From Micromonospora echinospora (lineage in GTDB: Bacteria; Actinomycetota; Actinomycetes; Mycobacteriales; Micromonosporaceae), in the NCBI RefSeq assembly GCF_014203425.1, contig NZ_JACHJC010000001.1, positions 6,589,501 through 6,653,500 on the forward strand: DNA of 64,000 nucleotides. The letters run 5' to 3'. Of the stretch, positions 18,684 to 36,839 are shown piece after piece. The notes below the pieces were generated by a model. It was not told where the DNA came from, ran no database searches, and was given only the letters and a program-made list of their open reading frames with translations. The position numbers and the translations under genes are program-made. The number at the start of each line of letters is the position of its first letter. Positions within the stretch are counted from its first letter, which is position 1.

Positions 18684-18766
18684 GTAGCGGGGACAGGATT
18701 TGAACCTGCGACCTCTGGGTTATGAGCCCAGCGAGCTACCGAGCTGCTCCACCCCGCGTCGGCTCG
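18684..18766. repeat. 83-base direct repeat containing tRNA-fMet, copy 1
   Basis: Identical to 21475-21557: the whole tRNA plus one base beyond its 3' end and eight bases upstream of its 5' end. The flanks diverge on both sides. It marks a duplication of the tRNA gene; the two copies enclose about 2.7 kb with two genes. Confidence 0.85.
18685..18758 (-). tRNA. tRNA-fMet (initiator), CAT anticodon, copy 1
   Basis: 74 bases on the minus strand. Acceptor CGCGGGG pairs with CCCCGCT, leaving an unpaired C1:U72 end, and the anticodon stem has the three G:C pairs GGG-CTCATAA-CCC. Both are initiator features. T-loop GTTCAAATC. CCA is not encoded. A TAAGCT -10-like hexamer (plus 18770-18775) lies upstream. 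It is identical to the copy at 21476-21549. Confidence 0.95.
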
Positions 18767-21474: not shown

Positions 21475-21557
21475 GTAGCGGGGACAGGATTTGAACCTGC
21501 GACCTCTGGGTTATGAGCCCAGCGAGCTACCGAGCTGCTCCACCCCGCGTCGGCTCG
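21475..21557. repeat. 83-base direct repeat containing tRNA-fMet, copy 2
   Basis: Base-for-base identical to 18684-18766. See that entry. Confidence 0.85.
21476..21549 (-). tRNA. tRNA-fMet (initiator), CAT anticodon, copy 2
   Basis: Identical to the tRNA at 18685-18758, with the same C1:U72 mismatch and three G:C anticodon-stem pairs. A TACGGT -10-like hexamer (plus 21561-21566) lies upstream, different from copy 1, so each copy appears to have its own promoter and its own terminator. Confidence 0.95.
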
Positions 21558-33590: not shown

Positions 33591-33767
33591 CTACAGGACG
33601 CCCAGGTCGCGGGCCGACTGGCTGCGACTCCGCATGGCGACGTTACGGGCGGAACGGGTTGCCTCAGTGCTCGTGGTGGTGCGACCGGCCTGAGGCCGGC
33701 GCATTCGGGCCCTGGACAACGCTTCGTGGAGTAGTTGCATCTCAAATCCGTTCGGCAGGTTCAGCAT
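33591..33767 (-). CDS. Small basic protein downstream of whiB7
   Basis: 58 residues, reading MLNLPNGFEMQLLHEALSRA and continuing with RMRRPQAG, a Thr/Ser-rich middle, NVAMRSRSQSARDLGVL and a TAG stop just before the shared terminator. An amphipathic N-terminal helix and a very basic remainder are visible. ATG at 33767 is preceded by GAGAGAGAA. It begins 68 bases after the whiB7 stop on the same strand and no terminator separates them, so it should be co-transcribed with whiB7. No family is recognised; coding status is supported by codon pattern and context only. Confidence 0.55.
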   Translation of the reverse strand: MLNLPNGFEMQLLHEALSRARMRRPQAGRTTTSTEATRSARNVAMRSRSQSARDLGVL

Positions 33768-33835
33768 CAGGGTTTCTCTCTCAGGTCGGCCGGTGGAGGG
33801 ACACCGGCATCGGTCGGTTTCGGAACGTAGGTGTG

Positions 33836-34201
33836 TCAGGCTGCCAGCCGGACGGCGTTACGCGACTCGGACAGCCCGCTGGCCGCCAGTCGCGCCTCCG
33901 CCTCGACCCGGAGCTGGGCGTCACGGGCGAGGTCCTCCTTGCGCGGACGGCCACGGGGCCGCTTGCGCGGGACGACCGCGCCACGCTCGAAGATCTCGCC
34001 GCCCCAGACGCCCCAGGGCTCGGCTCGCTCGACGGCACCGGCCAGGCACTCGACGCGCAGCGGGCAGTCCCCGCAGAGCGACTTGGCCAGCTCCAGCTCG
34101 GCGGGCGAGTCGGAGAACCACAGGTCGGGGTCGAACTTCCGGCAGGGCAGGTTCGCCTCCACCTCGACGCTCACGTCGAGTGGGGCCAACGCCAGACTCA
34201 T
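33836..34201 (-). CDS. whiB7: WhiB7 iron-sulfur transcription factor
   Basis: 121 residues. Four cluster-binding cysteines at 20, 43, 46 and 52 (LPC, SLCGDCPLRVEC), the turn EPWGVWGGE at about 61-69 that contacts SigA, and a C-terminal AT-hook RGRPRK at 83-88, which distinguishes WhiB7 from other Wbl proteins. WhiB7 binds the housekeeping sigma factor and activates intrinsic antibiotic-resistance genes. GGAGG abuts the ATG, and AGGTGA is better spaced further upstream. It follows uvrD2 with a long regulated leader, as in mycobacteria. Confidence 0.95.
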   Translation of the reverse strand: MSLALAPLDVSVEVEANLPCRKFDPDLWFSDSPAELELAKSLCGDCPLRVECLAGAVERAEPWGVWGGEIFERGAVVPRKRPRGRPRKEDLARDAQLRVEAEARLAASGLSESRNAVRLAA

Positions 34202-34264
34202 CCTCCGGTCACCTCTCTCTCACTTCGATCTCGTGGATCGCATTCCGACGTACTTCGGCGGGGC

Positions 34265-34308
34265 AAAAAACTGAGGCCGCGGATCCCAGTAGCGGGTTCC
34301 GCGGCCTC
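34265..34308 (-). terminator. Intrinsic terminator in the whiB7 leader (attenuator)
   Basis: On the minus strand an 11-base stem GAGGCCGCGGA with its complement (plus 34273-34283 and 34298-34308), extended by CCC/GGG beyond one mismatch, loop of six, followed one or two bases later by six Us (plus A-run 34265-34270). It is the best intrinsic terminator in the window and lies 64 bases upstream of the whiB7 start codon, so it would stop transcription before the gene. Confidence 0.88.
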
Positions 34309-34352
34309 GAGGTGAGCCGGTGTCTGATGGATCAGACCGGTCTACCTCGAGG
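34305..34352 (-). promoter_or_regulatory. Candidate antiterminator hairpin in the whiB7 leader
   Basis: Arms CCTCGAGGT (plus 34305-34313) and its complement (34344-34352), with inner pairing CCGG plus TCTGA around a TGGA loop and one 2-base bulge. The outer arm shares four bases (34305-34308) with the terminator stem, so the two structures compete. The other arm lies inside the last codons of the leader ORF, so a ribosome reaching the stop would open this hairpin and let the terminator form. Confidence 0.65.
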
Positions 34353-34586
34353 TGGAACGCCGCGGACATCCGTGCGCTTCTTGGCGCCATCGATGCCCAT
34401 GCCCGCGAAGCCACTGGTCCCCTCGACTCCGGCGATCGGCGCAACGGTCAGGTTCAGCTCGGCCTGAACCTGGACCTGGTGCACCTGCGGAACCGACGGT
34501 CGAGCAGCGAGGGCCACCCGGACAGCCGACAGCGGAGCGACGGCAGACGGCATCGCCGCGAGACGCTCATAGTTGAAGATCTTCAC
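34332..34586 (-). CDS. Leader ORF (uORF) of whiB7
   Basis: 84 codons starting at GTG 34586 (MKIFNYERLAAMP), with GGGAGG eight bases upstream; GTG 34595 is an alternative. The stop at 34332 falls inside the candidate antiterminator hairpin, about 24 bases before the terminator. Codon use is unlike the neighbours: many A/T-ending codons, and the last eight codons include GTT CCA CCT CGA GGT AGA, with rare CGA and AGA and a Pro-Pro pair. This suggests selection on RNA structure and translation speed and not on the peptide. No family match is recognised. Confidence 0.65.
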   Translation of the reverse strand: MKIFNYERLAAMPSAVAPLSAVRVALAARPSVPQVHQVQVQAELNLTVAPIAGVEGTSGFAGMGIDGAKKRTDVRGVPPRGRPV

Positions 34587-34674
34587 TGGTGCCACCTCCC
34601 TACTCTCCTCGTGCCGACCACGGACTCATCCCCCTTGAGCAGCCAGAACGGCGCCGCTCGCGAGGTGTGTCCTG

Positions 34675-34712
34675 AGGCTATTCCTCGTCCTCGGGCGAGG
34701 GCAAACGATTTA
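34675..34712 (-). promoter_or_regulatory. whiB7: whiB7 promoter with AT-rich WhiB7-type element
   Basis: On the minus strand: AT-rich TTAAATCG (plus 34705-34712), then -35 TTGCCC (34699-34704), an 18-base spacer, and -10 TAGCCT (34675-34680). An AT-rich element directly upstream of -35 is the known signature of WhiB7-activated promoters, read by its AT-hook, and fits autoactivation. It begins 4 bases beyond the uvrD2 stop. The transcript would start near 34668, giving a leader of about 467 bases. Confidence 0.65.
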
Positions 34713-34715
34713 AGG

Positions 34716-36839
34716 CTAGATTTCGAAAGTTTTCTGCGGGCAGACCTCGTCCACGGTGGCGCCGGCCACCAGGGCCAGCACCGTATCCCCGTAAAGCCCC
34801 ACTTTTCGGGGCCCGATCCCGGCGATCGCCACCAATTCCTCGGTCCGACCGGGCTTCCGCTCGGCCAGCGCCGTGAGCGTGGCGTCGGTGAAGACCACGT
34901 ACGCCGGCACCTTCTGCGCGCCGGCCACCCGCTGCCGCCACTCGCGCAGCCGCTCGTACAGCTCCTCGTCGATGTCCGACGGGCAGGTCGGGCAGCGGCC
35001 CAGTTTGCGGTCCGCGCCGGCGAGCAGCGTCGCGCCGCAGATGCGGCAGGAGACCACCTGCGGCCGGCGCCGCTCGGCCCGCCGTGCCGGACCGGCGCCA
35101 CCGGCCCGCTCACCGCCGCCGGACCGGTCGAGCTGGGGCAGGAAGCGGGAGGGACGCCGGGCCCGTCCGCCGGGCGAGCGGGCCGTGGCATACGACAGCC
35201 AGAGCCACTCGCGGGCCCGGGTAATCCCGACGTAGAGCAGCCGCCGTTCCTCCTCGACCTGCTCCATGGTCTTCGCGTACGTGGTGGGCAGCGTGCCCTC
35301 GGCGAGCCCGACCAGGAACACCGCGTCCCACTCCAGCCCCTTGGCCGAGTGCAGCGAGGCGAGCGTGACGCCCTCGACTGTGGGCACGTGCTGCTGGGCG
35401 GCCCGCCGGGCGAGTTCCTCGGTGAACCCGGTCAGGCCGGGCTCCTCCTCGGCCTGCGCCGCGTACTCCTCGGCGAGCTGAACCAGCGCGGCGAGCGCCT
35501 CCCACCGCTCGCGCGCGGCACCGCCGGGCGGGGGCGCGTCGGGTGCCCAGCCGACAGCGGTGAGCCCGTCGACCACGGCCGCTCGCAGCGGCGCGTCAGC
35601 GGGCGCCGACCGGGTGGCGGCGCGCAGCGCGATCATCGCCTGGCGCACCTCGGGCCGTTCGAAGAACCGCTCCGCGCCCTGGAGCACGTACGGCACACCG
35701 GCCTCGGAGAGCGCCTTCTCGTACGCCTCGGACTGCGCGTTGGTGCGGAACAGCACGGCGATCTCACGCGCCGGTGTGCCGCCCGCGACCAGCGCCCGGC
35801 AGCGGGCGGCGACCGCGTTCGCCTCGGCCGGCTCGTCGGTGAAGATCCGCAGTTCCGGCTCCGGACCGGGCCGGCGCTGGCCGTGCAGCTCCAGCCGCAG
35901 CCGCGCCTCGGTGCCACGCGCCTGGGAGATCACCGCGTTGGCGAGCCCGACCACCTGCGGCGTGGAGCGGTAGTCACGGACCAGCCGGACCACAGTCGCG
36001 CCCCGGTGCAGCCTGGGGAAGTCGACCAGGTACGACGAGGTGGCCCCGGTGAACGAGTAGATCGTCTGGCTGGCGTCGCCGACCACAGTGAGGTCGTCCC
36101 GGCCGCCCAGCCACGCCTCCAGCAGCCGCTGCTGGAGCGGGTTGACGTCCTGGTACTCGTCGACCACGAAGTGCCGGTACTGGTTGCGCACCTGCTCGGC
36201 GACGTCCGGGTGCTCCTCGATGCCCCAGACCGCGGCGCGCAGCATGTCCTCGAAGTCGATCACCCCGTTGCCGCGTTTGAGCCGCTCGTACGCGTCGAAC
36301 ACGTCTGCGACCCGGGCCGGCTCGTACGGCGTCTCGCGCAGCGCCTTGGCCGCGGCGACCACGTACTCCCCCGGCTCGACCAGCGACGACTTGGCCCATT
36401 CGATCTCGGCGGAGAGGTCACGCGCGGCGGCCCGGTCGGCGCGCAGCCCGACCTTGGCGGCGGCGAGCGTGACCACCCGCACCTTGCTGTCCAGCAGCTC
36501 CGGCATGGCCCGACCGGCCAGCAGCCGGGGCGCGAAGTAGCGGACCTGCCGCAGCGCCGCGGCGTGGAACGTGCGCGCCTGCACACCCTGCACCCCGAGC
36601 ACGGTGAGGCGGCTGCGCATCTCGGCCGCGGCGCGGGCGGTGAACGTGACCGCCAGCACGTGCCGGCCGGCGATGTCGCCGGTCAGCGCCCGGTACGCGA
36701 TCCGCGACGTCACCGCCCGGGTCTTGCCGGTGCCGGCGCCGGCCAGGATGCAGACCGGCCCGGCCGGGGCGGTCACCGCGGACCGCTGCTCCGGATCCAG
36801 CCCGGCCAGCACCCGTTCCGCACCTGAGTGAACGCCCAC
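34716..36839 (-). CDS. uvrD2: ATP-dependent DNA helicase UvrD2
   Basis: 707 residues. SF1A helicase: Walker A AGAGTGKT (residues 33-40), VDEYQDVNPLQQ, GDASQTIYSF, LVRDYRST, SLHSAKGLEWDAVF and VGITRARE. The C-terminal part has a tetracysteine motif (CRIC and CPTC) and an HRDC domain (VFTDATLTALAERKP). This domain set defines actinobacterial UvrD2 (Rv3198c), a 3'-5' helicase. GTG start at 36839. The stop is followed at once by the whiB7 promoter. Confidence 0.95.
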   Translation of the reverse strand: MGVHSGAERVLAGLDPEQRSAVTAPAGPVCILAGAGTGKTRAVTSRIAYRALTGDIAGRHVLAVTFTARAAAEMRSRLTVLGVQGVQARTFHAAALRQVRYFAPRLLAGRAMPELLDSKVRVVTLAAAKVGLRADRAAARDLSAEIEWAKSSLVEPGEYVVAAAKALRETPYEPARVADVFDAYERLKRGNGVIDFEDMLRAAVWGIEEHPDVAEQVRNQYRHFVVDEYQDVNPLQQRLLEAWLGGRDDLTVVGDASQTIYSFTGATSSYLVDFPRLHRGATVVRLVRDYRSTPQVVGLANAVISQARGTEARLRLELHGQRRPGPEPELRIFTDEPAEANAVAARCRALVAGGTPAREIAVLFRTNAQSEAYEKALSEAGVPYVLQGAERFFERPEVRQAMIALRAATRSAPADAPLRAAVVDGLTAVGWAPDAPPPGGAARERWEALAALVQLAEEYAAQAEEEPGLTGFTEELARRAAQQHVPTVEGVTLASLHSAKGLEWDAVFLVGLAEGTLPTTYAKTMEQVEEERRLLYVGITRAREWLWLSYATARSPGGRARRPSRFLPQLDRSGGGERAGGAGPARRAERRRPQVVSCRICGATLLAGADRKLGRCPTCPSDIDEELYERLREWRQRVAGAQKVPAYVVFTDATLTALAERKPGRTEELVAIAGIGPRKVGLYGDTVLALVAGATVDEVCPQKTFEI

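Follow-up and report, generated by a model that had tools for sequence, protein, structure and literature searches.

In the trp and his leaders, the position of the ribosome in a leader ORF chooses between an antiterminator and a terminator, and in translational attenuators of the ermC/ermB type a stalled leader ribosome frees a hidden Shine-Dalgarno (SD) sequence. In Actinomycetes, intrinsic drug tolerance is set by whiB7. Lee, Lee and Roe (2022) are said to have reported an attenuator with an upstream ORF (uORF) for whiB7/wblC of Streptomyces coelicolor and mycobacteria.

Available portions of four papers describe uORF attenuation for Streptomyces and mycobacteria with the logic that full translation leads to termination (PMC11550727, PMC9618640, PMC13393426, PMC13236596), and the whiB7/wblC uORF attenuator is also treated as known in the available portions of PMC4128351, PMC12421871, PMC12121999, PMC10287673 and PMC7157823; that of PMC4974804 does not mention it. 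In excerpts of the same kind, a 2025 paper stated that drug-induced stalling within the whiB7 uORF had not been tested (PMC12121999), and a 2026 paper named stalling as the inducer and showed for M. tuberculosis that ribosomes occupy the leader (PMC13236596). Our literature search, outside which the text of Lee et al. (2022) lay, found no whiB7 attenuation in Micromonospora and no sequestration of the whiB7 SD.

The leader described here represents, in Micromonospora, the type of uORF attenuator that whiB7/wblC is known to have in Streptomyces and mycobacteria. It has in common with the attenuator of S. coelicolor and mycobacteria the gene, the promoter type, the uORF, the terminator, the antiterminator and the predicted direction of the response, but differs in the sequence and length of the uORF, in the CCUCGAGG core of the antiterminator and in a hairpin inside the uORF. 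A predicted lock on the whiB7 SD further sets it apart from its relatives, as this feature is rare in the leaders of two families, f16 and f2, which by kinship and genome size look Streptomyces-like and mycobacteria-like, respectively. As in the trp and his attenuators, the position of the leader-ORF ribosome would decide between antiterminator and terminator; in contrast to them, the whiB7 leader does not repeat the codons of any single amino acid, encodes 84 codons instead of a short peptide and has no supported anti-antiterminator. As in the ermC/ermB type, stalling in the leader is predicted to expose an otherwise masked SD, but here a terminator is combined with this device and no drug-specific arrest peptide is evident.

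The whiB7 locus and its promoter

The window (the whole stretch of DNA analysed, 64,000 nucleotides from Micromonospora echinospora) comes from a genome assembled as a single contig of 7.1 Mb, and its nearest named relatives place it in Micromonospora. On the minus strand, the interval from a helicase gene to whiB7 holds a promoter, a uORF of 84 codons with a hairpin spanning its stop codon, and a terminator rich in GC:

34716-36839, UvrD-type helicase gene (Pfam), on the other flank of the leader from whiB7
34675..34713, minus strand, WhiB7-type promoter (from its sequence and its recurrence in leaders)
34713-34706, minus strand, AT-rich box TTAAATCG, TTAAAT(CG)
34704-34699, minus strand, TTGCCC, followed by an 18-nt spacer
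34680-34675, minus strand, TAGCCT
34599-34593, minus strand, uORF SD GGAGGTG
34332..34586, minus strand, uORF of 84 codons, GTG start at 34586, stop TGA 34334-34332
34449..34472, minus strand, uORF-internal hairpin, loop GCCGAG (34463-34458)
34345..34366, minus strand, antiterminator 5' strand: UCCGCGG (34366-34360), 7-nt bulge, CCUCGAGG (34352-34345)
34305..34352, minus strand, hairpin drawn in the sequence-only reading, inner part of the antiterminator, spanning the uORF stop
34305..34320, minus strand, antiterminator 3' strand (AT3) CCGGCUCACCUCGAGG, from folds
34273..34308, minus strand, intrinsic terminator hairpin, -29.9 kcal/mol
34265..34270, minus strand, terminator U tract TTTTTT, with AG between hairpin and tract
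34205..34215, minus strand, whiB7 SD region GAGGUGACCGG, predicted from a fold to be the partner of AT3
33836..34201, minus strand, whiB7, 121 aa (Pfam Whib and PDB sequence matches)

The gene downstream of the leader is identified by sequence as whiB7: its product matched Pfam Whib in a domain search (E=1.1e-13), and in a sequence search the best solved-structure (PDB) sequences bear the name WhiB7 (E=1.6e-33), while an NCBIfam search with this product assigned no family. A whiB7 match at E<=1e-20 was present in 296 of 300 Micromonosporaceae genomes. A conserved 58-aa ORF (33591-33767, minus strand) starts about 70 bases past whiB7; relatives of its peptide occur in 74 of the 80 named whiB7 loci, 3' of whiB7 among the rows listed, and it is possibly co-transcribed with whiB7.

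The TTGCCC-N18-TAGCCT promoter with an AT-rich box upstream, proposed from the sequence beforehand, was correctly placed. By its elements the leader promoter is of the WhiB7 type, with the AT-rich box 3 bp before the -35 element, a spacer within 16-19 bp and TANNNT; its spacing agrees with that of WblC-activated promoters in the available portion of PMC7157823. The combination of AT-rich box and TTGNNN-18-TAGCCT was found in 86 of 100 Micromonosporaceae leaders (see below) and in 0/100 when the complementary strand of these segments was scanned, and a looser pattern in 89 of 93 leaders from elsewhere, again with 0 on the opposite strand. A simple pattern scan of 33600-34900 returned 0 promoters and 0 terminators and therefore gives no support to either.

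Collection of whiB7 leaders

We gathered 80 named loci and 30 loci from other genomes of Micromonosporaceae. In the class, 136 of 158 genomes had a whiB7 match; 88 of the 134 outside the genus were taken, giving 88 loci from other families, and one more locus of the genus Micromonospora (L111) was added. Removal of seven duplicates left 193 leaders, 100 from Micromonosporaceae including the window and 93 others (the 88 class loci, four Pseudonocardia and L080). The terminator was located by script in 192 of the 193 leaders and by hand in L123. Cross-family tests used 107 leaders, 14 selected from the 100 Micromonosporaceae and all 93 others.

Alternative pairing of the end of the uORF

The sequence-only reading had placed a hairpin at 34305-34352, with the end of the uORF as its 5' arm, and a terminator at 34273-34308 followed by six Us, the two having four bases in common. 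Both are present in the sequence at these coordinates, the common bases being GAGG (34308-34305). The segment 34360-34266 folds at -51.3 kcal/mol, compared with -29.2 (sd 3.05) for shuffled sequences (z -7.26; 0/200 as good). Minimum-energy folds of the window leader hold the terminator together with a shortened hairpin, and the two structures as drawn are therefore only partly exclusive, clashing at four pairs only. When the RNA was folded without the 3' arm of the terminator, a longer antiterminator appeared, in which UCCGCGG (34366-34360) pairs with CCGCGGA (34304-34298) and CCUCGAGG (34352-34345) pairs with CCUCGAGG (34312-34305), so that the entire 5' arm of the terminator (34308-34298) is occupied. 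The helix 34366-34360:34304-34298 is needed because otherwise only four pairs conflict with the terminator, and this longer, modelled form is likely the antiterminator.

With a ribosome placed at the uORF stop, the folding energy of the window RNA was -31.6 kcal/mol with the terminator and -10.1 kcal/mol when the 3' arm was kept from pairing. If the end of the uORF was available from 34363, or from a point upstream of it, 7 to 10 of the 11 bases of the 5' arm were taken before the 3' arm was made. For the finished transcript, RNA beginning 45 nt before the uORF stop had a mean terminator probability of 0.99 over 98 leaders, the terminator was likewise part of the whole-leader fold of the window, and at equilibrium the uORF held the 5' arm only for RNA starting at 34430. 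Since most foldings of the finished transcript favour the terminator, antitermination is probably kinetic, and the modelled on state is probably won through the order of synthesis.

The terminator keeps an A opposite an A between its stem parts (34297 and 34284, minus strand); both positions are at least 90% conserved among 45 aligned Micromonosporaceae, which is more than a plain terminator needs.

Comparative support for the switch

Sequence comparison across leaders established the parts of the switch, their conservation and their alternative pairings. The end of the uORF paired with the 27 nt around its cognate terminator arm at -30.15 kcal/mol, against -25.56 (sd 0.32) for permuted partners, and none of 2000 permutations was as strong (107 leaders). 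For single leaders, the cognate pairing ranked in the best 5% of non-cognates in 27/107 and below their median in 13/107. Paired cells exceeded those of column-shuffled alignments in the core of the antiterminator (585/679 vs 470, with anchoring in 97 of 107 leaders), in its outer helix (602/848 vs 543; 106/107 leaders) and in the terminator (934/963 vs 901), with 0/1000 shuffles reaching the observed value in each case. As the pairing register had been derived from each fold, the count was redone with chimeras carrying refolded uORF ends of other families: cognate leaders kept 5.52 of 7 core pairs compared with 3.78, and 5.59 of 8 outer pairs compared with 4.55 (106 leaders), and the cognate fold equalled or exceeded all 15 chimeras in 33/106. 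By these counts the outer antiterminator helix is weaker than the core. At position +3 of the terminator, the bases of the 5' arm, the uORF strand and the 3' arm change together from G/C/C to A/U/U in families f2 and f26 and to U/A/A in f20, and leader L144 of family f16 has an identical antiterminator layout built from different bases.

Covariation in the alternative stems, proposed earlier as a check, was thus found for both across families; within Micromonosporaceae the two stems are nearly frozen, so this family is little informative. The antiterminator is exclusive with the terminator and supported by covariation, as in the whiB7/wblC attenuator. One further measure was dropped because its contrast to shuffles was too small: in partition-function calculations 8.87 of 11 bases of the 5' arm were hidden, compared with 7.18 with shuffled uORF ends, and all 20 shuffles were beaten in 68/193 leaders. 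A candidate anti-antiterminator between the uORF body and the antiterminator 5' strand was rejected, as its cognate pairing (-38.27) was weaker than the permuted one (-39.66; 67 leaders) and 1999/2000 permutations were at least as strong.

The uORF keeps its frame and its end

The 84-codon ORF with a good ribosome site (SD GGAGGTG) was verified; the automated ORF list gave 87 aa from a GTG at 34595, a start within the uORF SD. A uORF ending ahead of the terminator was found in 193/193 leaders by a permissive script with no chance control, which accepted the best-scoring ORF of at least 15 codons. A first tally that sought a PPR-type end fitted 100 of 104 leaders, the four misses being Pseudonocardia. 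An SD word of GAGG/GGAG or longer precedes the uORF in 98/100 Micromonosporaceae. The distance from the uORF stop to the terminator arm had a median of 27 nt (range 16-86, 193 leaders), the extreme of 86 nt being a script error in leader L074, whose uORF end was corrected by hand for alignment A1. The stops of the 100 first-tally leaders (TGA 84, TAG 9, TAA 7) have a similar place relative to the hairpin. Of the expected conservation of the uORF, its presence held and its length did not, ranging from 79 to 184 codons in the first tally and from 29 to 184 with the permissive script.

The GC content by codon position (0.69/0.53/0.81) has the rhythm of coding sequence. In 75 of the 100 first-tally leaders, the uORF belongs to Micromonosporaceae, has at most 100 codons and ends in GVPPRG[RK]PV. 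With the last ten codons excluded, the three codon positions of these 75 uORFs are equally variable (major-base frequency 0.84/0.82/0.84); by this measure selection has maintained the frame but not the body of the peptide. The final codons do not vary, in part even at third positions (CCT and CGA in 75/75), and include six consecutive uncommon ones (GTT 1.6%, CCA 1.3%, CCT 2.6%, CGA 3.9%, GGT 11.7% and AGA 0.9%, as shares of synonymous codons in five genes of the window), as would be expected if this strand acts as RNA. Leader L069 has CCTCGAAG as its uORF-end strand and CTTCGAGG as the partner, so that pairing is restored while the peptide differs (PPRRKP).

These properties bear on two readings in which the peptide or its composition would matter. 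A sensor in which the uORF peptide stalls ribosomes with certain drugs, GVPPRGRPV being the arrest sequence, would account for the conserved end, with PP close to it, and for the uncommon codons. We regard it as very unlikely: the peptide body is not conserved as protein, its conserved end falls on the antiterminator strand and reads as RNA, not as an arrest sequence of the erm type, the peptide change in L069 is compensated by a base of the partner strand, and a stall at the very end of the uORF would favour the terminator. An attenuator specific for one amino acid, of the trp/his type or for alanine, is more improbable still. In its favour are the response of whiB7 to amino-acid starvation in relatives, according to the available portions of PMC12121999 and PMC11550727, and the 13 alanines among the 84 residues of the window uORF; yet no residue was strongly enriched in the 100 Micromonosporaceae uORFs relative to five window genes (Ala 14.9% vs 15.0%, Val 11.6 vs 8.4, Pro 10.4 vs 7.0), and the uORF shows neither the repeated nor the surplus codons for a single amino acid that mark such attenuators. 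What the uORF must keep is an open frame, its last codons and the position of its stop, not a peptide, and a general sensor of translation is therefore favoured over a drug-specific arrest peptide.

A search of all leaders for the motif of the uORF-internal hairpin returned it from Micromonosporaceae alone (82/100). Its stem covaries above shuffled or slid versions (71 distinct rows, 54 of them in a second test, in which the covariation score was 0.272 vs 0.138 for shuffled alignments, 0/500). Tree-aware sign tests found few independent changes, mostly in the expected direction, with no pair significant; RNAalifold recovered four pairs only, and the strongest 30-nt uORF hairpin lay at the distance of this hairpin (130-149 nt bins) in only 13/71 leaders. 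The hairpin thus covaries, weakly once the tree is considered, and may, as a guess, be a pause or speed element.

Predicted pairing of AT3 with the whiB7 Shine-Dalgarno region

Positions 34320-34309 of AT3 (CCGGCUCACCUC) are complementary to GAGGUGACCGG (34215-34205); the helix of 11 pairs, in which one C is bulged, would enclose the terminator. The RNA left free by a ribosome on the uORF stop (34321-34170) has a minimum free energy of -70.3 kcal/mol (z -4.11; 0/200 shuffles), and its minimum-energy fold includes the AT3:SD helix. In 99/100 Micromonosporaceae and 22/90 others, no more than 5 of 100 versions of AT3 with shuffled letters matched the duplex (190 of the 193 leaders; the row of L111 has a misplaced gene start), whereas the control targets passed in 35/190 (spacer), 17/190 (whiB7 codons) and 24/190 (uORF SD). 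By family, 9/9 leaders passed in f17, 1/7 in f16 and 0/13 in f2. In sequence, this complementarity hardly varies among Micromonosporaceae; one further family has it strongly, and it is rare in f16 and f2.

Predicted openness of the SD in Micromonosporaceae was 0.37 in the antiterminated state, computed with the 3' arm of the terminator barred (0.07 without the bar), and fell to 0.02 when a ribosome occupied the stop (98/100 leaders), the change exceeding 0.3 in 67 leaders. The corresponding values were 0.38/0.03 in f17 (nine leaders), 0.38/0.43 in f16 (seven) and 0.46/0.37 in f2 (two), and the states differed little in f21, f23 and f14.

A translational lock through this helix, as modelled, has about even chances. 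AT3 could be a three-way switch in Micromonosporaceae and in one or more further families, bound either to the end of the uORF (on) or, around the terminator, to the whiB7 SD (off), a possibility that we place a little below even. Given the same weight, slightly short of even, is a pure transcription attenuator as in Streptomyces and mycobacteria, in which the AT3:SD fit merely follows from a strong SD facing a strand that resembles an anti-SD. AT3 is anti-SD-like and part of the fit is therefore generic: it fits the SDs of other families almost equally (permuted -11.05 vs cognate -11.95), with one leader per family the fit is moderate (z -2.26, range -3.56 to -1.43, as against -1.09 for the uORF's own SD), and the spacer control passes the shuffle test in 35/190. 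Few leaders outside Micromonosporaceae pass that test, one in f16 and none in f2, in these two families the openness of the SD barely shifts, and the openness of the antiterminated state in Micromonosporaceae depends on the barred 3' arm. GGTGA is present in 99/100 Micromonosporaceae, with the preceding purines conserved too. Against a by-product, the CCGG that follows GGTGA, the partner of the CCGG in AT3, is 96-98% conserved despite a variable distance to the ATG, compared with 48-68% for the next four bases. In f17, all of whose leaders pass, three have the compensated pair UCGG in AT3 and CCGA at the SD, while others, with CCGG and CCGA, have lost the pair. None of 2000 permutations of AT3:SD partners reached the cognate value (104/107 leaders). 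If the three-way switch is true, the uORF ribosome would control whiB7 at both termination and translation, and finished mRNA would be silenced when translation recovers; the second lock would account for tight repression and fast shut-off, and could have escaped notice if the models studied are without AT3:SD pairing.

A working model of the attenuator

With considerable confidence, we read the leader as a whiB7 attenuator that senses ribosomes and probably has two locks; of its transcriptional part we have little doubt. Beyond the aligned parts, we infer that the uORF is translated, and likewise the timing, the second lock, the inducers and the autoregulation. In unstressed cells, ribosomes would reach the uORF stop and cover the antiterminator 5' strand, leaving AT3 free, so that the terminator would form and transcription would end; in transcripts that escape, AT3 would pair with the whiB7 SD region and block translation. 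Under stress, from a ribosome-targeting drug or starvation, ribosomes would lag or stall anywhere upstream in the uORF, and the 5' strand would pair with AT3 and the entire terminator 5' arm before the 3' arm is made. RNA polymerase would then read through with the whiB7 SD free, and WhiB7 would raise the output of its own promoter. The sequence-only reading had proposed that translation to the stop allows the terminator and that slow or stalled ribosomes spare whiB7; this logic is supported, having been published for relatives and agreeing with the covarying stems.

Occurrence of the attenuator in the class

An attenuator model built from 45 Micromonosporaceae leaders matched 96 of 148 class genomes at E<=0.01, and the strong matches, compared by eye, adjoin whiB7 positions; the class genomes with no match include 10 of the 13 listed f2 genomes. 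On the host genome, model R1 matched the whiB7 site at E=7.6e-29, with opposite-strand matches there at E=5.7e-4 and 0.68. A second genomic copy of the switch was rejected, as the sole other site (E=0.016) resembles a plain terminator after a 500-aa ORF. Weak matches away from whiB7 in other genomes, L204 (G411:C16), L205 (G329:C31) and L206 (G417:C1), could be other terminators or related switches. Rfam 15 assigned no family to the window leader, and in ten other loci it returned at E<=1 a single miRNA match (E=0.64), far under the gathering score. At gathering, the window has only two tRNAs; these genes (18685-18758 and 21476-21549, minus strand) have equal model scores, lie 2.8 kb apart and are perhaps a duplication.
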